64,000 nucleotides of DNA, from positions 1,646,396-1,710,395 of the forward strand of contig NZ_BSDC01000001.1 of the NCBI RefSeq assembly GCF_030268045.1, in the 5' to 3' direction. Made by a program: the position numbers and the translations under genes. The notes under the pieces are model-generated. The model was given only the letters and a program-made list of their open reading frames with translations, made no database searches and had not been told where the DNA came from. The DNA comes from Geothrix edaphica. Lineage in GTDB: Bacteria; Acidobacteriota; Holophagae; Holophagales; Holophagaceae. Positions 25,136-38,492 of the stretch are shown here, piece after piece (position 1 is the first letter of the stretch; each line of letters opens with the position of its first letter).

Positions 25136-26884
25136 CTACCAGAGCCCCAGCACCTTCCACCACAGGCCGCCGAGGCCCACCCAGATGACGATGTTCACGA
25201 CGCTCACGATGAGCCCCGTGCGCCACCAGGTGCCGATCTCCACGTAGCCCGTGCCGAAGAGCACCGGCGCGGGTCCCGTTCCGTAGTGGGTCATGCCGGC
25301 GAAGAGGTTGCTGAAGAAGGCGAGCACCAGCGCCGCCAGCACGGGCGGGGCGCCGGCGACGATGGACACACCGAGGAAGGCCGCGTACATCGAGGCCACG
25401 TGGGCCGTGTTGCTGGCGAAGAAGTAGTGGCTGTAGAAGTAGACCAGCGCGAGCACCAGGAAGGCCGCGATCCAGCCCTTGCCCGCCACCATGCCGCCCA
25501 TGGTCTTGCTGAACCAGGGCACCATGCCCAGCTTGTTGAGGAAGCTGGCCATCATCACCAGGGCGGCGAACCACACCAGGGTGTCCCAGGCACCGGTCTC
25601 GGCCTTGATGTCATCCCAGGTGAGGACCCCGGAGAGCAGCAGCACCGCCAGGCCCGCCAGGGCGGAAGTGGTGGGGTTGAGGTCGCCCAGCTGCTTGGCG
25701 AAGATCCAGAGGATCAGCAGCATCACGAAGACGCCCAGCATCATCCACTCCTGGCGCTTGATGGGCCCCAGGTCCCGCAGGTGTCCCTTGGCCATCTCCA
25801 CGGCCTCCGGGGTCTCCGTGATCTCCGGCCGGTGGAGGCGATAGATGATGAATGGGACCAGCAGCAGCGCCACCAGGCCCGGCACCACCGCCGCGACCGC
25901 CCAGCCGACCCAGGTGATGTTCACCTTCAGGTCGCCCGCCAGCTTCTGGGCCAAAGGGTTGGCGGCCATGGCCGTGAGGAACATGGCGCTGGTGATGCAA
26001 TTCACCTGGTAGGCCGTCAGCGTGAGGAACGACCCCATCTTCCGGGCGCTGGCGTCGCCGGGGTTGCTTCCGTAGGCGCGGGCCAGCGAGGCCATGATGG
26101 GCATGACGATGCCGCCGCCCCGGGCGGTGTTGCTGGGAATGGCCGGCGCCAGAACCAGGTCCGTGGCTGCCAGGCCGTAGCTGAGCCCCAGCGTCCGCTT
26201 GCCGAGCAGGGCCATGAAGGTGTAGGCGATGCGGGCGCCGAGGCCCGTCTTGATGAAGCCCCGGGAGATGAAGAAGGCCAGGACGATGAGCCAGATCACC
26301 ACGTCGGAGAAGCCGCTCATGGAGTCCGCGATGCCGAGGGTGCCCGTGAGGGCCGTGACGGCGATGCCGATCATGGCCACCGCGCCCATGGGCAGCGCCT
26401 TCACGATGATCCCCACGATGGTGGTCACGAAGATCGCGAAGAGGTGCAGCCCCTTCACCCAGTCGGCCTTCCGCTTGGTTTCGGCCTCCACCTTGGCCTT
26501 GGCCTCGGCGTCGGCCTTCACCTTGGCATCGGCTTCCGCCTTCGCTTTGGCCTCCGCCTCGACCTTGGCCCTGGCTTCCGCCTCCACCTTCGCCTTGGCT
26601 TCCTGCTGGGCCTTGGTCAGGGGTTTGGCAGACAGCGGGGCGGCCGCGGGAGCCGGCGCGGGAACGGGCTTGGCCGCTGGCTTGGCGGGCATGGCCGGGA
26701 CCGGCTTGGCAGCTGCGGGCTGGCCCGTGAAGAGCTTGGCATCGGGCACGGATACCAGCCTCGGCAGGCCGAAGTACAGGATCAGCCCCAGGACCAGCGT
26801 GACGAGGGCCGGAAGCGGCCTGGCGCCCTGCCAGCCGGACAGGCCTCCGGCGGCGGCCGTTCCGGAAACGGGTTCATGGCTCAT
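25136..26884 (-). CDS. DASS-family anion:Na+ symporter with TolA-like charged insert
   Basis: 582-residue divalent-anion symporter (SLC13/CitT-like), about 110 residues longer than usual. After a first membrane helix (about 27-42) comes a Pro/Ala/Lys segment and then about residues 85-140 of Ala/Lys/Glu repeats of the type [10 protein letters not shown], a single long charged helix like TolA. The carrier core follows: [18 protein letters not shown] with the Ser-Asn-Thr motif of the first substrate loop, and [16 protein letters not shown] with the second. ATG 26884 has GGAGG 6 bases upstream. The insert replaces the ordinary first cytoplasmic or periplasmic loop. Confidence 0.9.
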
Positions 26885-29436: not shown

Positions 29437-31377
29437 TCAGGCCGGAAGCGCCCCCAGGATGGCCTTGGCCAGATCCGTCAGCGAGGGATCCCGCGCACCC
29501 ATCACCAGGATGAGGTCTCCGGAGTTCGCCTCGGCGGCCAGCCGGTCCACGAGCCAGTCCCGCGAGGACGCCAATTCCGTGGCCACACCCCGGGCGGCGA
29601 TGTCCGCGACCACCTCGGCGCTGGTGATGTCGCGGCTGGCGGTGCCCCCGGCGTAGAAGACATCCAGGAACCAGAGGTGGTCCCGGGGCGCCAGCTCGGC
29701 TGTGAAGGCCTCCACGAATTCCGCCCGGAGGAACTTGAGGGGTCCGAAGCCGTGGGGCTGGAAGACCGCCAGCACGCGTCCCCCCGCGGCCGCCACGCGC
29801 AGGTGGGCGGCCCGGATCGAGGCCGACACCTTCGCGGGGTTGTGGCCGAAGTCGTCCACGACGGTGATGCCCTGCCGCGCGCCCAGCACCTGGAAGCGCC
29901 GCGCCACGCCCTGGAAGGCGGCCAGCGGCGCCGCCATGGCTTCCAGCCTCACTCCCAGCGCCTGGCAGGCCCCAAGGGCCGCCAGCGCGTTCTCGACGTT
30001 GTGAAGCCCGGTCACAGGAATGACAAAGTTGGTCCTCCCGACGCGGAAAGCGGAGCGTTCCGCGCCAAGCGACAGGCCTTCGGCCCGCAGGCCGGCCCCT
30101 TCCCCGAACCCGAAGGTCGCCGCCCCCGCCGCGAATTCCCGCAGGTTCTCCGCCTCGCCCACCACCGCGGCCTCGCGCACCTGGGCGCGGAAGAGCCGGA
30201 ACATCCCGGCCACCGCATCCATCTCCTTGTGGTCCTTCTGGAGATTCAGGATCACGCCCACGGCCGGGTGGTAGCGCACCACGGAGCCGTCGCTCTCGTC
30301 GGCCTCGATCACCAGAAGATCGGAAGCCCCCGCCCAGGCGTTGCCCCAGCGACCCTCGCGCTGCAGGGCCACCAGCTCGCCGCCGGTGATGACTGAGGGA
30401 TCCAGCCCCGCGCCGCGCAGGATCTCGAAGACCATGGCCACCGTAGTGGACTTGCCGCTGGTGCCCGTCACGGCCACCGTGCGGTACCGCGCCACGAGGT
30501 GCGCCAGCAGTTCCGACCGGTGCAGGACCGGCACCCCCAGTCGCCGCGCCGCCACCACATCCGGCACCTCCTCTTCCACGGCCGTGGACACCACCAGGGC
30601 CGCGCAGTCTCCTTCCAGGCCCGAGCCATCCTGGGGATGGATCACCACTCCCAGGGCCTCCAGCTGAGCCCTCGCCTCGGGCCGCTGGTTGCGGTCGAAG
30701 GTGCGGTCGCTGCCGCTGGCCCGGCCACCCTTCAGGGCCGCGAACTGGGCCAGGGCGCTCATGCCGCTGCCGGCCACGCCGGCGAAGTGCAGGCGGCCGA
30801 GGCCCAGGCCAGCGCCCGGCAGATCCTCGGCGATGAGGACGGGATCGCCCTCTGCCACGCGCTCGAAGAGGTCCTCCACGTCGGTGTTCGACAGGCGCAC
30901 GCAACCGTGGGACACGGGCGTGCCCAGCTCGTGCTCCTGGTTGGTGCCGTGGAGGTAGATCCAGCGCAGCCGCGAGTCCCGCCCCGGCCCGCGGTTCCAG
31001 CCCTCCTCCAGCCCGTCCAGCGTGAGTACGCGGGTGAGGATGAGATCCTCCTCCCGGGCCTCGCCCCGCCACACCTCGCCGGTGGGCTTCTGGGCCTTGA
31101 ACACCGCGCCGGGCTCGGCCCCGTCGCCGATGCGTGCGAGGATGCGGTGCCAGCCCGTGGGCGTGCGGTACGAGTTCTCCTCGCAGCCCAGGCCGTTCTT
31201 CGCCGTGGAGATGACGGCCTCGAAGGCCAGACGGCCGCCCACCAGCAGGCCCAGGCGCTGGCGCGCCACATCCACCACGACCACAGGCCCCAGGGGATCC
31301 CAACCCGGTGCGCCCGGACGGGCGAGGTTCGCCAGCACCAGGGCGCGGTAGCGGGCGGCGAGGACGGGATCGATCAC
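29437..31377 (-). CDS. L,D-transpeptidase (YkuD) domain fused to a MurC/Mpl-like ligase
   Basis: 646-residue two-domain protein. Residues about 30-183 are a YkuD domain with YLHGTNQEHELGTPVSHGCV: catalytic His143, Ser156-His157-Gly158 and nucleophile Cys159 all in place. Directly after it, residues about 195-646 are a Mur ligase: GVAGSGMSALAQ, P-loop VTGTSGKSTT (about 303), IEADESDGS, and FGHNPAKVSASI. NLQKDHKEMD replaces the usual MurC NIDxDHLD, so this is a side branch of MurC/Mpl. There is no signal peptide or membrane segment. Start GTG 31377 overlaps the upstream stop (GTGA). The reading frame is open throughout, with no sign of a frameshift. Confidence 0.92.
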   Translation of the reverse strand: MIDPVLAARYRALVLANLARPGAPGWDPLGPVVVVDVARQRLGLLVGGRLAFEAVISTAKNGLGCEENSYRTPTGWHRILARIGDGAEPGAVFKAQKPTGEVWRGEAREEDLILTRVLTLDGLEEGWNRGPGRDSRLRWIYLHGTNQEHELGTPVSHGCVRLSNTDVEDLFERVAEGDPVLIAEDLPGAGLGLGRLHFAGVAGSGMSALAQFAALKGGRASGSDRTFDRNQRPEARAQLEALGVVIHPQDGSGLEGDCAALVVSTAVEEEVPDVVAARRLGVPVLHRSELLAHLVARYRTVAVTGTSGKSTTVAMVFEILRGAGLDPSVITGGELVALQREGRWGNAWAGASDLLVIEADESDGSVVRYHPAVGVILNLQKDHKEMDAVAGMFRLFRAQVREAAVVGEAENLREFAAGAATFGFGEGAGLRAEGLSLGAERSAFRVGRTNFVIPVTGLHNVENALAALGACQALGVRLEAMAAPLAAFQGVARRFQVLGARQGITVVDDFGHNPAKVSASIRAAHLRVAAAGGRVLAVFQPHGFGPLKFLRAEFVEAFTAELAPRDHLWFLDVFYAGGTASRDITSAEVVADIAARGVATELASSRDWLVDRLAAEANSGDLILVMGARDPSLTDLAKAILGALPA

Positions 31378-33326
31378 GCCCCCGCCTCCACGATGCGCCC
31401 GGCCAGGGCGCTGGCGGCGACGGTGGCGGGGCTGGCCAGCCACATCTGGCCCGGTCCGCTGCGGCCAGGGAAGTTCCGGTTGATGGCGCTGATGGTCACC
31501 TCGTCGGGTCGCGTGGACACGCCGGGCCCCGCGTTGATGCAGGCGCCGCAGGAGCTGCCCAGCACCACGGCACCCACGGCCTCGAAGGCCGCGAGCCAGC
31601 CGTGTGCCTCGGCGTGGCGGCGCACATCCTCGCTGCCGCACTGCACGAAGAACCGCACGCCCACAGGCACTCGCCGCCCTTCCGCCGCGGCAGCCTTCAC
31701 CACCTCGTAGGCCCGGCGCAGGTCCTCGCGCTTGCCGCCGGTGCAGCTGCCCAGGTAGGCGATGTGGATGGGCACGGCCTCGCCCAATTCCGCCAGGGCC
31801 ACGCCATTCCCGGGATCGCCGGGTCGGGCCAGCATGGGACCCAGGGCCGCGCCGTCCACGACCAGGGTGTGGGCGTATTCGGCGCCCGCGTCACCCTGCA
31901 TCCAGGGTTCCAGCGCGAGGTCCGCGCCGCGCCGCTCCTTCACGAAGCGCACGGTCTCCGCATCCGGCGCGATCAGCCCCGTGAAGCCGCCGATCTCCGC
32001 GGCCATGTTCGTGAGCGTGGCCCGCTCATCCGTATCCAGGTCCAGCAGCCCTTCGCCCTGATACTCGATGACATGGCCGATGGCCCCGCCCTCGCGGATG
32101 AGGGGCTGGGCCAGGAGGTGCAGCACCAGGTCCTTGGCGGACACACCCGGGCGCAGGCGGCCGTCCAGGCGCACCCGCAGGGTGGGCGGCACGGTCACGC
32201 GCACGTCGCCCGTCACCCAGGCGTTGGCGATGTCCGTGGTGCCCACGCCGAAGGCCAGGCAGCCCAGCGCCCCGGCGTGGGGCGTGTGCGAGTCCGTGCC
32301 CACCACCACCTGGCCCGGCAGGGCGTAGCGCTCGGCCATGAGCGCGTGGCAGATGCCCTCGCTGCCGGAACCATCCGGAAGCTCGCCGTGGAGCCGGATG
32401 CCGTGCTTCGCGCAGAAGGCCTCCTGGGCGGGCTTCAGGCGCTCGGCCACCGTGAGCAGGCCCATGGCCCGGTGCTCGGCCGTCATGCTGTGGTGCAGGA
32501 AGGTCAGGTGGTCGCGGAAGGCGAGGATGGAAGCGGGATCGCGCAGCTTCGAATCCGGTCCCAGGGCCCTCTCCAGGAAGCTCGCCGCCATGGGCGTCAC
32601 GTACTCGTGGCTGAAGCGCCAGTCCGCCCGCACGAAGAGGCCATCGCCGGGCCTCACGGCGGGGAGTCCCACCTGCCCCGCCGCCGCGTCCACCACGGCG
32701 TGGCGGGCCAGCAGCTTCTCGGCGTAGGTCATGGGGTGCGGCTCGTGGGCGGGCAGCGGAGGCTTCACGTCGCCCGTCATGCGGGCGGCGTTGTAGGGGA
32801 AGAGGCCGCCCCGACGCACGATCTCGGCGGTGACGGGGTCCAGGCCCGCGGTGAACTCCGCCAGGGGGATGGCCTCGCCCCGCCGGAGGCGCGGAATCAG
32901 ACCGAAGTCCGTGCTGGTGAGCAGGCCCAGGTTCTGGGCGTTCTGCCGGTAGATGCGCTCGAAGCTCTCCGCGATCACCAGGCGGAGGCCCGCGCATTGT
33001 TCCGCGTAGGGGCTGGCCTCCCGGCTGCTGCCCTTGCCCCGGCGCCTGCCGGCCACACTCACGGCGAAGCCCCCGGCCCGCACGGAGCCTTCCTTCACGG
33101 GGAAGGCCTCGCCGCACTTCAGGCCCAGGTAGGGGAAGTCGCCCAGCTTCTCGTCGAAGTGGTAGCAGATGAAGGCCGGCGTGATCTCGTCCGTGCTGAT
33201 CTGGTCGCGCAGGGGAAGTGCTTCGCCCAGCTCGAAGTCCTCGCCTTGCAGCTGGCGGAGGATCCGCTCCGGATCCTCCGTGAGGAAGAGCACTCGGCCA
33301 TCGAAGCGGATCGGATCAGGCAGCAT
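31374..33326 (-). CDS. Aconitase-superfamily dehydratase, LeuD-like swivel domain fused ahead of LeuC-like core
   Basis: 650-residue hydro-lyase with reversed domain order. The N-terminal ~170 residues are the small swivel domain (LRDQISTDEITPAF, VAGRRRGKGSSREASP with the substrate-binding GSSRE), and the rest is the [4Fe-4S] core: VGTDSHTPHAGALGCLAFGVG, cluster cysteines in YLGSCTGGKREDL and LGSSCGACINAGPG, and the final NRNFPGRSG. ATG 33326 lies just after GGAGG. The substrate is not fixed by sequence: isopropylmalate, aconitate or a homologue are possible. It is the first gene of the run leading to the transpeptidase/ligase fusion. Confidence 0.87.
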   Translation of the reverse strand: MLPDPIRFDGRVLFLTEDPERILRQLQGEDFELGEALPLRDQISTDEITPAFICYHFDEKLGDFPYLGLKCGEAFPVKEGSVRAGGFAVSVAGRRRGKGSSREASPYAEQCAGLRLVIAESFERIYRQNAQNLGLLTSTDFGLIPRLRRGEAIPLAEFTAGLDPVTAEIVRRGGLFPYNAARMTGDVKPPLPAHEPHPMTYAEKLLARHAVVDAAAGQVGLPAVRPGDGLFVRADWRFSHEYVTPMAASFLERALGPDSKLRDPASILAFRDHLTFLHHSMTAEHRAMGLLTVAERLKPAQEAFCAKHGIRLHGELPDGSGSEGICHALMAERYALPGQVVVGTDSHTPHAGALGCLAFGVGTTDIANAWVTGDVRVTVPPTLRVRLDGRLRPGVSAKDLVLHLLAQPLIREGGAIGHVIEYQGEGLLDLDTDERATLTNMAAEIGGFTGLIAPDAETVRFVKERRGADLALEPWMQGDAGAEYAHTLVVDGAALGPMLARPGDPGNGVALAELGEAVPIHIAYLGSCTGGKREDLRRAYEVVKAAAAEGRRVPVGVRFFVQCGSEDVRRHAEAHGWLAAFEAVGAVVLGSSCGACINAGPGVSTRPDEVTISAINRNFPGRSGPGQMWLASPATVAASALAGRIVEAGA

Positions 33327-33353
33327 CCCTCCAGAGTACCGGCTCTTCCCCCT

Positions 33354-33389
33354 CCGCACGAAGGCCCCCAACCGGGGGCCTTCGTGCGG
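33354..33389 (-). terminator. Hairpin between DUF1292 gene and aconitase-like gene
   Basis: Perfect 16-base stem (33354-33369 with 33374-33389), loop AACC, arms starting CCGCACGAAGGCCCCC. No T-run follows on the minus strand, so termination may be partial. Confidence 0.65.
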
Positions 33390-34276: not shown

Positions 34277-35062
34277 CTACAGATAGCTCTTCGCCCCGAC
34301 GAAGGCCCGGCTGTAGTAGCGATCCGCCAGCCGGTCCTGCCGGATGCCCTGCCCCGGGCGCGGCGCGTGGATGAAGGCGCCCTGCCCCAGGTACAGCCCC
34401 ACATGGCTCACCCGGTCGCCACCGTTTGTGGCGAAGAAGAGGAGGTCCCCGGCCCGGGCCTCGTCCAGGTCCACCGAGCGGCCAGCTTCGAACTGCGCCT
34501 GGGAGGAGCGCGGCAGCTTCAGCCCGTTCAGCCGGTACACGGCTCCCGTGAGCCCGCTGCAGTCGAAGCCCCGCTCCGTGGTGCCCCCGAAGAGGTAGGG
34601 CACGCCCAGGTAGCCCCTGGCCGTATCCACCAGGCTGGCCCGCAGGCCCCGCTCATCCTCGGGATGCGCCTGGAAGCGGCCGCCCGCACCCGGGGCGGAG
34701 CCGTCCGGCGCCACCACCCAGTAGGCCTCGATGGTCCCGGCCGACTTCAGCGCCTCGCCCCGGGCCCGGGCCCGCTCCTTCGTGGCGAAGTCCCCGAACC
34801 GCACCCGGTAGAGGCCATCGCCCGAGGCGTAGTAGGCGGCCTCCAGCCCCTGGGCCTGCAGCGATTGCGAGAACCGGGCCGCGTTCTCCACCTTGGCGAA
34901 GGCCCCGGCCTGCAGCGTGTAGCCCAGCTTGGGAAGGGCCCTGACCGCACCTGGGCCCGACGCCGGGCGCGCGGCCACAGAGCGGGGTGCCCGGGTGCAG
35001 GCCGTGGACAGCAGCAGGGCCGCCACCACGACTGGACCGATCCTGTGCCTCAGGCGCCGCAT
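34277..35062 (-). CDS. SPOR and NlpC/P60 domain lipoprotein
   Basis: 261-residue putative peptidoglycan endopeptidase. The signal ends in a lipobox LLLSTAC, so it is a lipoprotein. Residues about 45-120 are a SPOR-like domain (YTLQAGAFAKVENAARFSQ, YRVRFGDFATKERA), which binds denuded glycan strands. The C-terminal NlpC/P60 domain has the catalytic Cys in FGGTTERGFDCSGLTGAVY and the His in DRVSHVGLYLGQGAFIHAP. ATG 35062 with GGAG 4 bases upstream is preferred over ATG 35074. A role in cell separation is inferred. Confidence 0.9.
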   Translation of the reverse strand: MRRLRHRIGPVVVAALLLSTACTRAPRSVAARPASGPGAVRALPKLGYTLQAGAFAKVENAARFSQSLQAQGLEAAYYASGDGLYRVRFGDFATKERARARGEALKSAGTIEAYWVVAPDGSAPGAGGRFQAHPEDERGLRASLVDTARGYLGVPYLFGGTTERGFDCSGLTGAVYRLNGLKLPRSSQAQFEAGRSVDLDEARAGDLLFFATNGGDRVSHVGLYLGQGAFIHAPRPGQGIRQDRLADRYYSRAFVGAKSYL

Positions 35063-35129
35063 GGGACTCCGCATGAAAGTCTGGAGGGATCCTAGCAGGG
35101 GGCGGCATCGAGAGCCCCCTTACCCACAA

Positions 35130-35184: not shown

Positions 35185-37953
35185 TCAGTTCGTCAACTGG
35201 ATCGGGAAGGGGCCGTTCACCTGCTTCGTCACCCCGGAGGTGATGTAGATGTAGTAGGTTCCGGGTGTGAGACCGGTGGTCTTCCAGTTGAACTGCCAGG
35301 TGTTGGTGGTCGTGTCGTATTGGTAGCCGCTGGAACCGGCATCATCCAGGGTGATGGCTCCGTCGGAGGATGCGTAATCCGCGACCTTCAGGATCCTGAT
35401 CTCCGGAGCGGCGGTCCCGCTGGGAATGGCCACGTTGGCGGCGTTGGTGTACTGCCACTTGAGCGGGATCGCGCTCTTGATCTTGTACGACTTGTTGGGC
35501 GTGTAAGGGGACAGCAGGCCGTAGAAGCCGTAGGTGATCACGTCATGGACCGTGCCACTGGCGGAGTTGTAGTTGGTGTTGCCCGCAAAGCTCCAGGCAT
35601 CGGCCGGGTAGTCGCCGGGGCTGGTGTGCGTGGTGCCGCTGAGGGTCAACAGGCCGGCCAGGCTCTCGCCCTTCACACCCGTGGCTGTGCCTGTGGCGGT
35701 GTGCGAATTGCCGTCGTAGATCGTGTTGTAGGGCGTCACGGTGATGGTCGCGTTGGCTTTGGTAAGCGTGATGGCCACGCTGCCGCTCGTGTTGTTGTAG
35801 TTGCCGGTGATATCGGTGAAGGTCCAGTTGGCCGTGCCACCCGGAACGTCGGTGAAGCTGGCGCCCAGGTTGAGGCCGCTCAGGGTCTCGCCCTTCACGC
35901 CCGTGGCCGTGCCGGTGGCCCCGTGGGGGTTGCCGTCGTAGACGCCCGTGTAGCCCGTCACATTGACCGTGGCATTGGCCTTGGCAATGGCGTCGTGGAT
36001 CGTGCCGCTGGCAGGGTTGTAGTTCGTATTGCCCGCGAAGCTCCAGGCATCCGCCGGGTAGTCGCCGGCGTTGGTGTGCGTCGTACCGGTGAGCGTCAAC
36101 AGGCTGCCCAGGTCGGCGGGGACGCTTTCCACGCCCCTGGCTGTGGCAGTGGCCGTGTGCGCATTGCCATCGTAGGTCACGCTGTAGGGTGTGACGGTGA
36201 TGATCGCGTTGACCTTGGCGATCTTGTCGGTGATGGTGCCGCTGGCCGCCTTGTAGTTGGTGTTGCCCGCGAAGCTCCATCCGTCGGTCGCGTAGGTGCC
36301 CGCGTCGGTGTGGGTCGTGCCGGTCAAGGTCAGCAGGCTGGAGAGATCCAGACCGGCGAGCCCGGTGGCCGTCCCGGTGGCCGTGTGGGCAGTGCCGTCG
36401 TAGTTGACGTCGTAGGGCGTCACCACGATGGTCGCGTTGATCTGGGCGATCTTGTCCGTGACCGTGCCGCTGGCGGCCTTGTAGTTGGTGTTGCCCGCGA
36501 AGCTCCAGCCATCGGTCGCGTAGGTGCCCGCGTCGGTGTGGGTCGTGCCGGTCAAGGTCAGCAGGCTGCTCAGATCCAGACCGGCGAGCCCGGTGGCCGT
36601 CCCGGTGGCCGTGTGGGCAGTGCCGTCGTAGTTGACGTCGTACGGGGTCACTACGATGGTCGCGTTGATCTGGGCGATCTTGTCCGTGACCGTGCCGCTG
36701 GCGGCCTTGTAGTTGGTGTTGCCGGCGAAGCTCCAGCCGTCGGTCGCGTAGGTGCCCGCGTCGGTGTGGGTCGTGCCGGTCAAGGTCAGCAGGCTGGAGA
36801 GATCCAGACCGGCGAGGCCGGTGGCTGTGCCGGTGGCCGTGTGGGCATGGCCGTCGTAGTTGACGTCGTACGGGGTCACTACGATCGTGGCTTCGGCCTG
36901 GAACACCTGGAAGGTCTGATCCACATCCGTCGCGGCAGTGTAGGTTCCGTTCCCGCCCTGGGAGGCGCGCACGGTCACATAGCCCGCTCCCGTGATGGTG
37001 AGCGTATTCCCGGACAAGGTGGCCGGGCCGGAGAAGATCGTGAAGGTCACGGGCAGGCCTGAGGAAGCCGAAGCGGACAAGCCGAAGGCCGTGTCACCGT
37101 AGGTGTGGTCGGGGATCGCGCCGAAGCTGATGGTCTGCCCCAGCTTGCCGATGTTCCGGACGCTGCCGGTACCCAAGGAAGCCAGATCCGCTGCCAGGTA
37201 GGTGCGGCTGTTGTTGAGGGCATCCAGGGTGGTCACCTTGCTGAGCTGATAGAGGCCCGGCACGGAGCCCGCGGGGATGGTCACCGCACCGCCCCAGGTG
37301 CCGCTCAGGGTCGTGCCCGAGCCCAGGGCGGTGGCTCCGGGATACAAGGCCCCATCCGGCCCCGTGAACCAGAAGCTGACCGAACTGGTGCCCGACAGGT
37401 TGTCCGTCACCGAGAAGCTGGCATTGATGGCCTGGGCGGCGCTGGTGGTGTCGATGGTGGACGGGCTGAGGCTGAAGGAAGCCAGCAGAGGTGCCGCGGT
37501 ATCCGCCGTGCTGCTGATCACGTCAACAGTGGCCGGGGGGAAGTCCTGCTTGAGGCGCCCCCACGGGTACTGCGCCTCGGGTCCAGAGCCCTCCGTCGCG
37601 TGAAGGGACAGCTGCCAGGTGCCGGCAGCCCCCTGGTAGGGGACGCTCAGGCTGATCTGGAAGTGGCCAGGCGAGAGCATGGTGCCTGCGACATAGCCGG
37701 TGGTCTGGCTGCTGGTCGGACTGCTGGCTCCCGCCAGGGTCAACGAGGCGCTCACCGAAGAGGCGGCCGTATCCGTCACCGTGACCACCACGGTCCGGGC
37801 GGAGGCGCTGACATCCACCGAGCCGGGACTGATGGCCAGGGCCGTGACATTGGCGGGCTGCGCACCGAACAGGGAGGAGGCCGCGAGGAGCAGCAGGGCG
37901 GCGGCTGTCCTGGCGAGCCGAGGGAGGAGGCGAGGTGTCATGGACCGTCTCAT
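35185..37953 (-). CDS. Secreted MBG-repeat / Ig-like protein
   Basis: 922-residue exported protein. A signal peptide (ARTAAALLLLAASSLFGAQ) is followed by Ig-like regions, then six tandem MBG-type beta repeats of about 76 residues from roughly residue 355 to 800 (ATIVVTPYDVNYDG, GLAGLDLSSLLTLTG, DGWSFAGNTNYKAASGT), ending in a C-terminal domain (NKSYKIKSAIPLKWQYTN). The first three repeats are nearly identical; the last three are diverged. No sorting signal or membrane anchor is seen at the C-terminus. ATG 37953 overlaps the upstream stop (ATGA). Probably a surface or secreted adhesin-like protein. Confidence 0.85.
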   Translation of the reverse strand: MRRSMTPRLLPRLARTAAALLLLAASSLFGAQPANVTALAISPGSVDVSASARTVVVTVTDTAASSVSASLTLAGASSPTSSQTTGYVAGTMLSPGHFQISLSVPYQGAAGTWQLSLHATEGSGPEAQYPWGRLKQDFPPATVDVISSTADTAAPLLASFSLSPSTIDTTSAAQAINASFSVTDNLSGTSSVSFWFTGPDGALYPGATALGSGTTLSGTWGGAVTIPAGSVPGLYQLSKVTTLDALNNSRTYLAADLASLGTGSVRNIGKLGQTISFGAIPDHTYGDTAFGLSASASSGLPVTFTIFSGPATLSGNTLTITGAGYVTVRASQGGNGTYTAATDVDQTFQVFQAEATIVVTPYDVNYDGHAHTATGTATGLAGLDLSSLLTLTGTTHTDAGTYATDGWSFAGNTNYKAASGTVTDKIAQINATIVVTPYDVNYDGTAHTATGTATGLAGLDLSSLLTLTGTTHTDAGTYATDGWSFAGNTNYKAASGTVTDKIAQINATIVVTPYDVNYDGTAHTATGTATGLAGLDLSSLLTLTGTTHTDAGTYATDGWSFAGNTNYKAASGTITDKIAKVNAIITVTPYSVTYDGNAHTATATARGVESVPADLGSLLTLTGTTHTNAGDYPADAWSFAGNTNYNPASGTIHDAIAKANATVNVTGYTGVYDGNPHGATGTATGVKGETLSGLNLGASFTDVPGGTANWTFTDITGNYNNTSGSVAITLTKANATITVTPYNTIYDGNSHTATGTATGVKGESLAGLLTLSGTTHTSPGDYPADAWSFAGNTNYNSASGTVHDVITYGFYGLLSPYTPNKSYKIKSAIPLKWQYTNAANVAIPSGTAAPEIRILKVADYASSDGAITLDDAGSSGYQYDTTTNTWQFNWKTTGLTPGTYYIYITSGVTKQVNGPFPIQLTN
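36208..36891. repeat. Three tandem 228-base repeats within the MBG gene
   Basis: Units 36664-36891, 36436-36663 and 36208-36435, exactly 228 bases (76 codons) each, nearly identical in DNA sequence; the next unit downstream is clearly diverged. Recent duplication or gene conversion is implied, and repeat number is likely to vary between strains. Confidence 0.92.
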
Positions 37954-38492
37954 TTCCGGATCCTCCCACGCGTATCCACGCCAATCTGGCCATGGAGCAG
38001 GTCGAGGTTCCCGATGACGGAGAGGTTGCCGGTCGCCGAGGCCAGGACGCCAGTGCCGCCGGTGATCACGAGGGCTCCGTCCAGGCCGTAGACCCCTTCC
38101 GTATCCGTCGGGGTCAGCAGCACCTCGTCCAGGGTGGTAATGGAGCTGCCGTCGGCGAAGAGGAAGACATGGCTGCCAGTGGCATGGAGGAGGCCATCCT
38201 CCGCCAGAGCCTCGGGGATGCTCAACTGCTGGGTCACCTGGGCCCACCGGCCCACGCCGTTGGCCCGGACCTCCGCCATGCCCAGAAACCCGCCCTTGGG
38301 GCTACGCGCGAGCTGGGACCGCAGGGCCACCTCATTGGTGCCGAAGTCGATCCAGATCGCGCCCGGGATGGCGCCGTCGTCCAGCGTGGCCGCCGCCAGC
38401 CGGGGCCGGGCCAATCCGCACACGCCCGCGGCTGCGACCGCGAGCAGCGCAAAGAGCGCCCTTCTCCGGCGGGAAGTGATGATGTGACGCAT
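37950..38492 (-). CDS. Hypothetical exported protein upstream of the MBG gene
   Basis: 180-residue protein with an Arg-rich N-terminus and hydrophobic signal (RRRRALFALLAVAAAGVCGL). The mature part has no domain I recognise; its end is Gly-rich and beta-like (ITGGTGVLASATGNLSVIGN). Its stop overlaps the MBG gene start (ATGA), so the two are co-expressed and possibly exported together. ATG 38492 follows AGGAGG within 10 bases. Confidence 0.75.
   Translation of the reverse strand: MRHIITSRRRRALFALLAVAAAGVCGLARPRLAAATLDDGAIPGAIWIDFGTNEVALRSQLARSPKGGFLGMAEVRANGVGRWAQVTQQLSIPEALAEDGLLHATGSHVFLFADGSSITTLDEVLLTPTDTEGVYGLDGALVITGGTGVLASATGNLSVIGNLDLLHGQIGVDTRGRIRK

Follow-up and report, generated by a model that had tools for sequence, protein, structure and literature searches.

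ElsL of Acinetobacter baumannii (also known as LdtK) is a cytosolic YkuD L,D-carboxypeptidase that trims tetrapeptides to tripeptides, leaves pentapeptides untouched, and feeds Mpl (PMC8649774; PMC9239154). ElsL is described as acting on imported anhydro-N-acetylmuramic acid (MurNAc)-tetrapeptides ahead of Mpl, and without it Mpl loads tetrapeptides, which leads to aberrant lipid II (PMC8649774). The Mpl of Psychrobacter also accepts tetrapeptide, although 44 times more slowly than tripeptide (5.9 and 260 per min, respectively), and its rate with L-Ala is 0.7 per min (PMC3060825). Here, we describe a gene from a 64,000-nucleotide stretch of the Geothrix edaphica genome (contig NZ_BSDC01000001.1, positions 1,646,396 to 1,710,395; the whole stretch is hereafter the window), in which an ElsL-like YkuD domain and a Mur ligase are joined in one open reading frame. 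The product of this gene is probably a cytosolic two-step recycling enzyme, predicted to trim tetrapeptides and to ligate the resulting tripeptides to UDP-MurNAc.

The gene and its parts are as follows, with coordinates counted from the first base of the window.

29437..31377, minus strand: YkuD-Mur ligase fusion gene; single open reading frame, 646 amino acids plus stop, GTG start
30832..31284, minus strand: YkuD (ElsL-type L,D-carboxypeptidase-like) domain, residues 32-182; PF03734, 75.4 bits, E 9e-21
30901..30912, minus strand: YkuD catalytic motif Ser156-His157-Gly158-Cys159; Cys159 in 231 and His157 in 229 of 231 fused relatives
30793..30831, minus strand: short linker, residues 183-195; the gap separating the Pfam matches
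30481..30792, minus strand: Mur_ligase domain, residues 196-299; PF01225, 62.8 bits
29968..30471, minus strand: Mur_ligase_M, central ATP-binding domain, residues 303-470; PF08245, 48.1 bits
30442..30468, minus strand: P-loop TGTSGKSTT, residues 304-312; from sequence alignment
29491..29901, minus strand: Mur_ligase_C, acceptor-binding domain, residues 493-629; PF02875, 61.6 bits
29731..29763, minus strand: acceptor-site motif FQPHGFGPLKF, residues 539-549; Gly543 aligns with HiMurC Arg377 and Pro546 with HiMurC Arg380
29488..29502, minus strand: clade motif MGARD, residues 626-630; GAG in MurC rows

All four Pfam domains exceed their gathering scores (for YkuD, 75.4 against the 23.4 required). 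The protein has the three Mur domains, the P-loop Lys, and the Mg-site Glu and His of the Mur ligase superfamily. An earlier note, made from the sequence alone, had described one in-frame reading of a YkuD domain followed by a Mur ligase, and the Pfam matches bear this out; the motifs that it named (His143, Ser156-His-Gly-Cys159, the P-loop, EADESDGS, and NLQKDHKE) are found at the residues that it gave. An AlphaFold2 model based on a 20-sequence alignment has a predicted local distance difference test score of 83.9 and a predicted template modeling (TM) score of 0.85, with low confidence in parts of the YkuD domain and at residues 575-583. In Foldseek searches, the ligase part of this model matches MurC structures with TM scores of 0.86-0.88 (eight best targets), whereas the match to Mpl (3hn7) is poorer, with a TM score of 0.67. 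The stretch between the domains is variable among relatives; in the 690-amino-acid fusion of locus L075, about 50 residues separate the end of the YkuD match from the start of the ligase match.

The fusion recurs widely. Among the best 120 of 5648 clusters matched in a protein-cluster search with the fusion, the window's own cluster included, all 120 have YkuD and three Mur domains in one protein. In a second search, with a profile made from ten ligases, 111 of the 120 best clusters are fused and nine are not, and the sources of the named clusters include Nitrospirota, Syntrophus, Chitinispirillales, and Krumholzibacteria. Many entries bear the name UDP-N-acetylmuramate--alanine ligase, as given by their sources. 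The Geothrix fermentans homologue has 86% identity. Of 247 Acidobacteriota genomes sampled, 23 have a match at E<=1e-60 and 21 of these carry the fusion, all in the window's own family (18 from the same genus and three from three further genera). Two Acidobacteriota genomes, G147 and G241, have ligase-only matches with 39% identity. The fusion of G182 was reported as two matches, and these lie within one open frame. The fusion was not matched in G174, a 1.2-Mb genome that represents a fifth genus of this family and has kept murC. The earlier note had considered a sequencing error that joined two genes. Some relatives are indeed split with a +1 overlap, such that one base lost or gained would fuse them. 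However, the recurrence across both cluster searches, many assemblies, and 21 genomes, together with the placement of two fused groups apart from each other on the ligase tree (see below), leads us to reject an artefact of assembly, frameshift, or annotation, the probability of which we regard as negligible.

The YkuD half resembles ElsL more than any other described family. Among NCBIfam models, ElsL (NF040925) is its best and only strong match, with 133.5 bits over residues 33-184, and the best L,D-transpeptidase model reaches 29 bits. The two proteins share the domain, the catalytic Cys, and a non-hydrophobic N-terminus; by a crude measure, the maximum 15-residue mean hydropathy within the first 45 residues of the fusion is 1.25. 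However, ElsL occurs as a protein on its own (model length 164), whereas the domain here forms the first third of a ligase. The cut-off of 270 bits of the ElsL model is passed by none of the 247 sampled Acidobacteriota genomes. Conservation was assessed in 240 proteins, which are the best 120 from each of the two cluster searches, the window's own protein included, and are thus biased to close relatives; 231 of them have the YkuD half. His143 and Cys159 are present in all 231 of these fused relatives and His157 in 229. The own genome has no second YkuD match. A search with the YkuD half alone found 741 shorter proteins, and among the best 120 listed, the top entries are cut pieces of fusions and many others, of about 194 amino acids, have roughly 55-65% identity. 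As a separate observation, in the set from the second search (P0242-P0361; mostly Nitrospirota-like fusions), the SHGCVRL motif has mostly become SHGCVCLR or SHGCVCMR, such that the usual place behind the catalytic Cys no longer has its Arg and an Arg is found two positions on.

These features suggest that the YkuD half is likely cytosolic, as the earlier note had proposed; that location is not without precedent, however, because the YkuD enzyme ElsL of Acinetobacter, which lacks a signal peptide, is itself cytosolic (PMC8649774). An ordinary periplasmic L,D-transpeptidase was rejected on the basis of the ElsL model and the N-terminus. The note had also suggested that the domain may trim or exchange D-amino acids. 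Trimming appears likelier than exchange because of the resemblance to ElsL. Many YkuD enzymes are transpeptidases, and the catalytic residues of the present domain are complete, as would suit an L,D-transpeptidase that replaces D-Ala at the end of cytosolic peptides with a different D-amino acid before the ligase installs the edited peptide. However, the ElsL model is ahead of the best transpeptidase model by about 104 bits and the characterized ElsL is a carboxypeptidase (PMC8649774), and we consider such an exchange very improbable.

In profile searches, the ligase half scores 292.7 bits with the murC model TIGR01082 (cut-off 335.1) and 127.7 bits with the mpl model TIGR01081 (cut-off 388.7), below the cut-off in both cases. 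The same holds for a fusion from Eisenbacteria, a fusion from Nitrospiria, a ligase from Krumholzibacteriia, and a ligase from Fibrobacterota. A ligase phylogeny was inferred from 51 domains, namely 22 fused or split ligases, 21 labelled MurC, and eight labelled Mpl. One of 52 rows, L083 (123 amino acids), had been dropped for its length, and L075 and most further Geothrix loci were not entered; among the labelled rows, L171 (MurC) and L187 and L199 (Mpl) score below their own cut-offs. All 22 fused or split ligases form one clade (support 100/100) on a stem of 1.18, and the Mpl rows form another (100/99). The clade of fused and split ligases joins the tree on the side of MurC and not of Mpl, and its unstarred neighbour is an Akkermansiaceae MurC (92/82). 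Long branches were found in four MurC/Mpl rows and in none of the 22, and an unusual letter make-up in four of the 22.

Several sequence motifs set this clade apart. Its P-loop reads SGKS instead of the HGKT of the MurC and Mpl rows. It has DD[FY][GA]HN, as compared with HH in MurC and in all Mpl rows but one, and QPHG[FY].P, as compared with QPH[RL]..R in MurC and EP.S in seven of the eight Mpl rows. Its end motif is MGARDPS. The earlier note was right that NLQKDHKE takes the place of the usual MurC motif, and this marks the entire clade: N..DHK is found in most members, and the Asp-His is kept, with the His aligning with the Mg-binding His of MurC. The residues believed to contact the incoming amino acid in a MurC complex are His376, Arg377, Arg380, Tyr346, and His348 (PMC3060825). 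The window protein has His, Gly, Pro, Phe, and His at these positions of HiMurC, respectively. Gly543, Pro546, Arg629, and the P-loop Lys309 are each present in 240 of the 240 proteins of the conservation set. Arg380 is a better mark of MurC than Arg377 because it is Arg in 21 of the 21 MurC rows and Arg377 in 15.

The ligase half is thus closest to MurC in sequence and fold, and retains the P-loop Lys and the Mg-site Glu and His. However, it differs in its score, in its separate clade, in the replacement of the L-Ala-binding arginines, and in that a canonical murC (552 bits) is present elsewhere in the genome, as the earlier note had proposed to check. The fusion as the only murC of this genome was therefore rejected. 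Mpl is similar to the ligase half in its predicted reaction, which joins a recycled stem peptide to UDP-MurNAc, and differs from it in score, in the (S/T)AFFDKRSK motif, and in that most Mpl rows have EPRSNT or the like where the clade has QPHG..P. Descent from Mpl was rejected on the grounds of bit scores, the tree, and the missing motif. The "MurC/Mpl-like" label of the earlier note is to be corrected in that the ligase is below both cut-offs and in a clade of its own.

One alternative is that the protein is a second MurC, with a ligase half that joins L-Ala to UDP-MurNAc and a YkuD half in an accessory role. TIGR01082 is the best ligase model (293 bits), the top structural matches are MurC, and many sources use the MurC name. 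However, the score is under the cut-off of 335, the clade is separate, with full support and a stem of 1.18, Gly and Pro occupy the L-Ala-binding Arg377 and Arg380 positions in all 240 proteins, and murC over the cut-off is present in 13 of 17 genomes that bear the fused or split pair, the remaining four being poor in Mur ligases or having a murC piece only. We therefore give this alternative little credence. Most Mur ligases are missing from three of those four genomes (G283, G290, and G294), and the fourth, G288, has only a piece of murC (profile positions 162-448). The Nitrospiria genomes G290 and G294 might seem to have the fusion as sole MurC, but they are incomplete, as judged from the other missing Mur ligases, and we draw no conclusion from them.

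Mpl over the cut-off was not found in the searched genomes that have the pair. With presence defined as E<=1e-80 (our own choice), 157 of the 247 Acidobacteriota genomes have Mpl, 110 of them with a score over the cut-off, whereas no fusion genome does (0 of 21; Fisher p 1e-10). These 21 represent one family, however, so the absence corresponds to about one evolutionary event. Across phyla, none of the 17 genomes with a fused or split pair has Mpl over the cut-off, with at least three of them clearly incomplete. Among nine genomes with stand-alone ElsL, six have Mpl over the cut-off; in the others, the Mpl match is 324 bits in G013 and 170 bits in G301, and no match was found at E<=1e-25 in G299.

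Taken together, these findings are consistent with the recycling role that the earlier note had offered as an example, which appears likely. We infer both activities, the tripeptide acceptor, the cytosolic location, and the advantage of coupling. In the proposed route, some amidase would remove the sugar from imported anhydro-MurNAc-tetrapeptide. Based on ElsL, Cys159 of the YkuD half is predicted to attack the diaminopimelate-D-Ala bond and release D-Ala. The ligase half would activate the carboxylate of UDP-MurNAc with ATP for attack by the amino group of the predicted acceptor, the tripeptide L-Ala-gamma-D-Glu-diaminopimelate; the Mur enzymes in general are assumed to use such chemistry (PMC3060825). 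The addition of D-Ala-D-Ala by MurF would follow. One protein would in this way replace ElsL (or LdcA) plus Mpl, and the fusion would help to exclude tetrapeptides, which block the addition of D-Ala-D-Ala, from the precursor pool. Because the Psychrobacter Mpl uses tetrapeptide so slowly, a built-in trimmer may raise the yield and prevent mis-charging. Alternatively, the order of the steps may be reversed, with the YkuD half as a proof-reader: the ligase would join any stem peptide and the resulting UDP-MurNAc-tetrapeptide would be trimmed to UDP-MurNAc-tripeptide. The acceptance of tetrapeptide by the Psychrobacter Mpl (PMC3060825) and the entry of tetrapeptide into lipid II upon loss of ElsL (PMC8649774) are compatible with this order, and sequence does not reveal which step comes first. 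However, ElsL is described as acting upstream of Mpl on imported anhydro-MurNAc-tetrapeptides (PMC8649774), and proof-reading after ligation is in our view unlikely.

The pairing of an ElsL-type domain with this ligase extends beyond single genes. The best 80 of 587 loci from a GTDB scan with the YkuD domain were compared, with flanks of up to 6 kb on each side (shorter at contig ends). Ten of these loci are fused, namely six titled as Geothrix, Holophagaceae, or Acidobacteria, one from Eisenbacteria, one from a Methyloceanibacter-titled metagenome-assembled genome (MAG), and two from Nitrospirota. In nine loci, the pair is split and the ligase gene immediately follows an ElsL-type gene (four from Krumholzibacteriota and five from Fibrobacterota). 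In L083, the ligase starts 2.5 kb downstream of the ElsL-type gene with other frames in between. The other 60 loci, from Gammaproteobacteria, Verrucomicrobiota, Bacteroidota, and others, have no match to the ligase at E<=1e-5 within the flanks. An ElsL-type gene and the ligase thus form a module of two genes that spans five phyla and is either fused or overlapping, and the pairing seen in the earlier note is not confined to one gene. As for the MAG fusion (L077, genome G282, 1.9 Mb), it is nearest to the Eisenbacteria fusion in the ligase tree, and the title may be wrong for this contig.

The ligase is read in the +1 frame in all nine split pairs, and in each of them its start nearest to the junction, a TTG, overlaps the stop of the YkuD gene by 8-20 bases. 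L087 also has an ATG four bases past the stop, and L086 also has a GTG further on. An overlapping TTG start would account for the +1 frame as well as programmed +1 frameshifting would. At these junctions (L079, L081, L082, L084, L086, L087, L095, L096, and L130), the TTG lies inside the last YkuD codons, and the four Krumholzibacteriota split loci have a G-rich stretch (such as GGAGG) just upstream. In the ligase tree and the YkuD tree alike, the Nitrospirota fusions are nested among the split pairs of Fibrobacterota, and a ligase tree constrained to unite all fusions is worse by 184.8 log-likelihood units (approximately unbiased test p 2.8e-6). Given the two places of the fusions on the ligase tree, at least two fusion events, or fusion followed by later splitting, would be needed.

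Other genes of the recycling pathway were searched for as well. LdcA, the family S66 L,D-carboxypeptidase, would perform the same trimming step as ElsL; it belongs to a separate family (PF02016), which has no match in the own genome. Within the class, LdcA is present in 19 of 61 genomes, including all seven of family f3 and none of the nine of family f2; all four f2 genomes searched for ElsL have the stand-alone form. The permease model TIGR00901 (named 2A0125), which we take to be the AmpG family, matches the own genome with 425 bits (cut-off 350), in favour of the recycling role. It is over the cut-off in 20 of the 21 fusion genomes (162 bits in G150) and in 45 of the 247 genomes overall, and matches were found in the controls E. 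coli, Caulobacter, and Bacteroides. Four fusion genomes (G065, G097, G182, and G150) have an S66 LdcA-like gene and, except for G150 with only one match, a second weak TIGR00901 match, which in G097 and G182 lies within 25 kb of the S66 gene. A second TIGR00901 match without S66 is present in G087, G106, and G133, and the association of S66 with the permease is only a lead.

Considering the clade as a whole, we lean towards a third class of UDP-MurNAc:peptide ligase, distinct from MurC and Mpl, that would occur in at least five phyla as one unit with an ElsL-type editing domain excluding tetrapeptides from the precursor pool. It would have become fused at least twice (in Holophagaceae/Eisenbacteria and in Nitrospirota) and would replace Mpl in every genome where both were sought. 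We hold this broader proposal slightly less firmly because the two groups of pairs are not united in the YkuD tree. In that tree of 61 hand-chosen rows, Fibrobacterota/Nitrospirota are apart from Krumholzibacteriota/Eisenbacteria/Holophagaceae, with stand-alone ElsL rows in between, and two stand-alone rows (L092 and L118) join the latter group (96/91); the stand-alone-row label requires two changes. For this reason, the pair may not have been assembled once. In addition, the pairing is strong and not absolute, given L083 and the Verrucomicrobia-titled genome G299 (the genome of L118), in which a looser ligase relative sits apart from the ElsL gene. This relative (L253:398-1702, minus strand) has DDYAHNPEK, RPHGYAP, and GARDP.

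Further points also weigh against the proposed function. The ElsL score of the YkuD half is below the NCBIfam cut-off, and so is that of every ligase model. The ligase is nearer to MurC than to Mpl in both sequence (293 vs 128 bits) and fold, none of the fused or split ligase rows with coverage of the site has the Mpl motif, and the Arg377 position is Leu in six of the 21 MurC rows. LdcA is also present in four of the 21 fusion genomes, and the neighbours of the fusion gene, encoding an aconitase and MazG, are not recycling genes. A search of five genomes of the class gave no Amidase_2 (AmpD-type) match in any of them, so something else must carry out the release of the peptide; Amidase_2 was likewise not found in G013, a member of the sister family with ElsL and the Mpl-like gene below the cut-off. 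Finally, the enzymatic roles of the clade are predicted for every member.

The GTG start of the fusion gene shares four bases with the stop of its upstream neighbour, listed here.

31374-33371, minus strand: aconitase-family gene; overlaps the fusion gene by 4 bases

In this gene, the Aconitase_C match precedes the catalytic domain. A MazG gene lies downstream of the fusion on the same strand. The order aconitase-fusion-MazG is found in the loci of six relatives (L015, L018, L073, L074, L075, and L078), and L080 has the aconitase gene with the sequence ending behind the fusion. Neither neighbour is present in the available DNA of L072, L076, L077, L093, and L133; the flanks of L031, L032, and L034 are too short for scoring. 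Elsewhere in the window, the gene at 34277-35074 (minus strand) encodes a protein with SPOR and NlpC/P60 domains and, by eye, a lipobox-like N-terminus, which is likely an envelope peptidoglycan endopeptidase. The gene at 35185-38247 (minus strand) encodes a long protein that looks secreted and contains almost identical repeats of about 75 amino acids in tandem (TPYDVNYDG...HTATGTATGLAGL), as seen by eye in the translation. The gene at 25136-26884 (minus strand) encodes a symporter of the sodium/sulphate type (PF00939), in which the N-terminal part has an unusual run of repeats that alternate between Ala, Lys, and Glu.

Each of the two activities is already known in other proteins. The earlier note knew of no enzyme with the YkuD-Mur ligase pairing, and none is described in the titles or abstract openings among the literature matches listed, a scope without preprints and with few subscription journals. 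Nor does the literature searched describe this clade of ligases, that it is coupled to ElsL, or that it occurs instead of Mpl. The fusion connects the ElsL and Mpl steps, which have so far been known as separate genes, predicts a substrate for an uncharacterized ligase clade, and provides one protein in which trimming and ligation may be studied jointly. Genomes without Mpl and LdcA are thought likely to degrade stem peptides rather than reuse them, as has been suggested for many species (PMC13046382). If the proposed function is true, Geothrix and some Nitrospirota, Fibrobacterota, and Krumholzibacteriota would reuse these peptides by a route that is annotated as MurC or L,D-transpeptidase.

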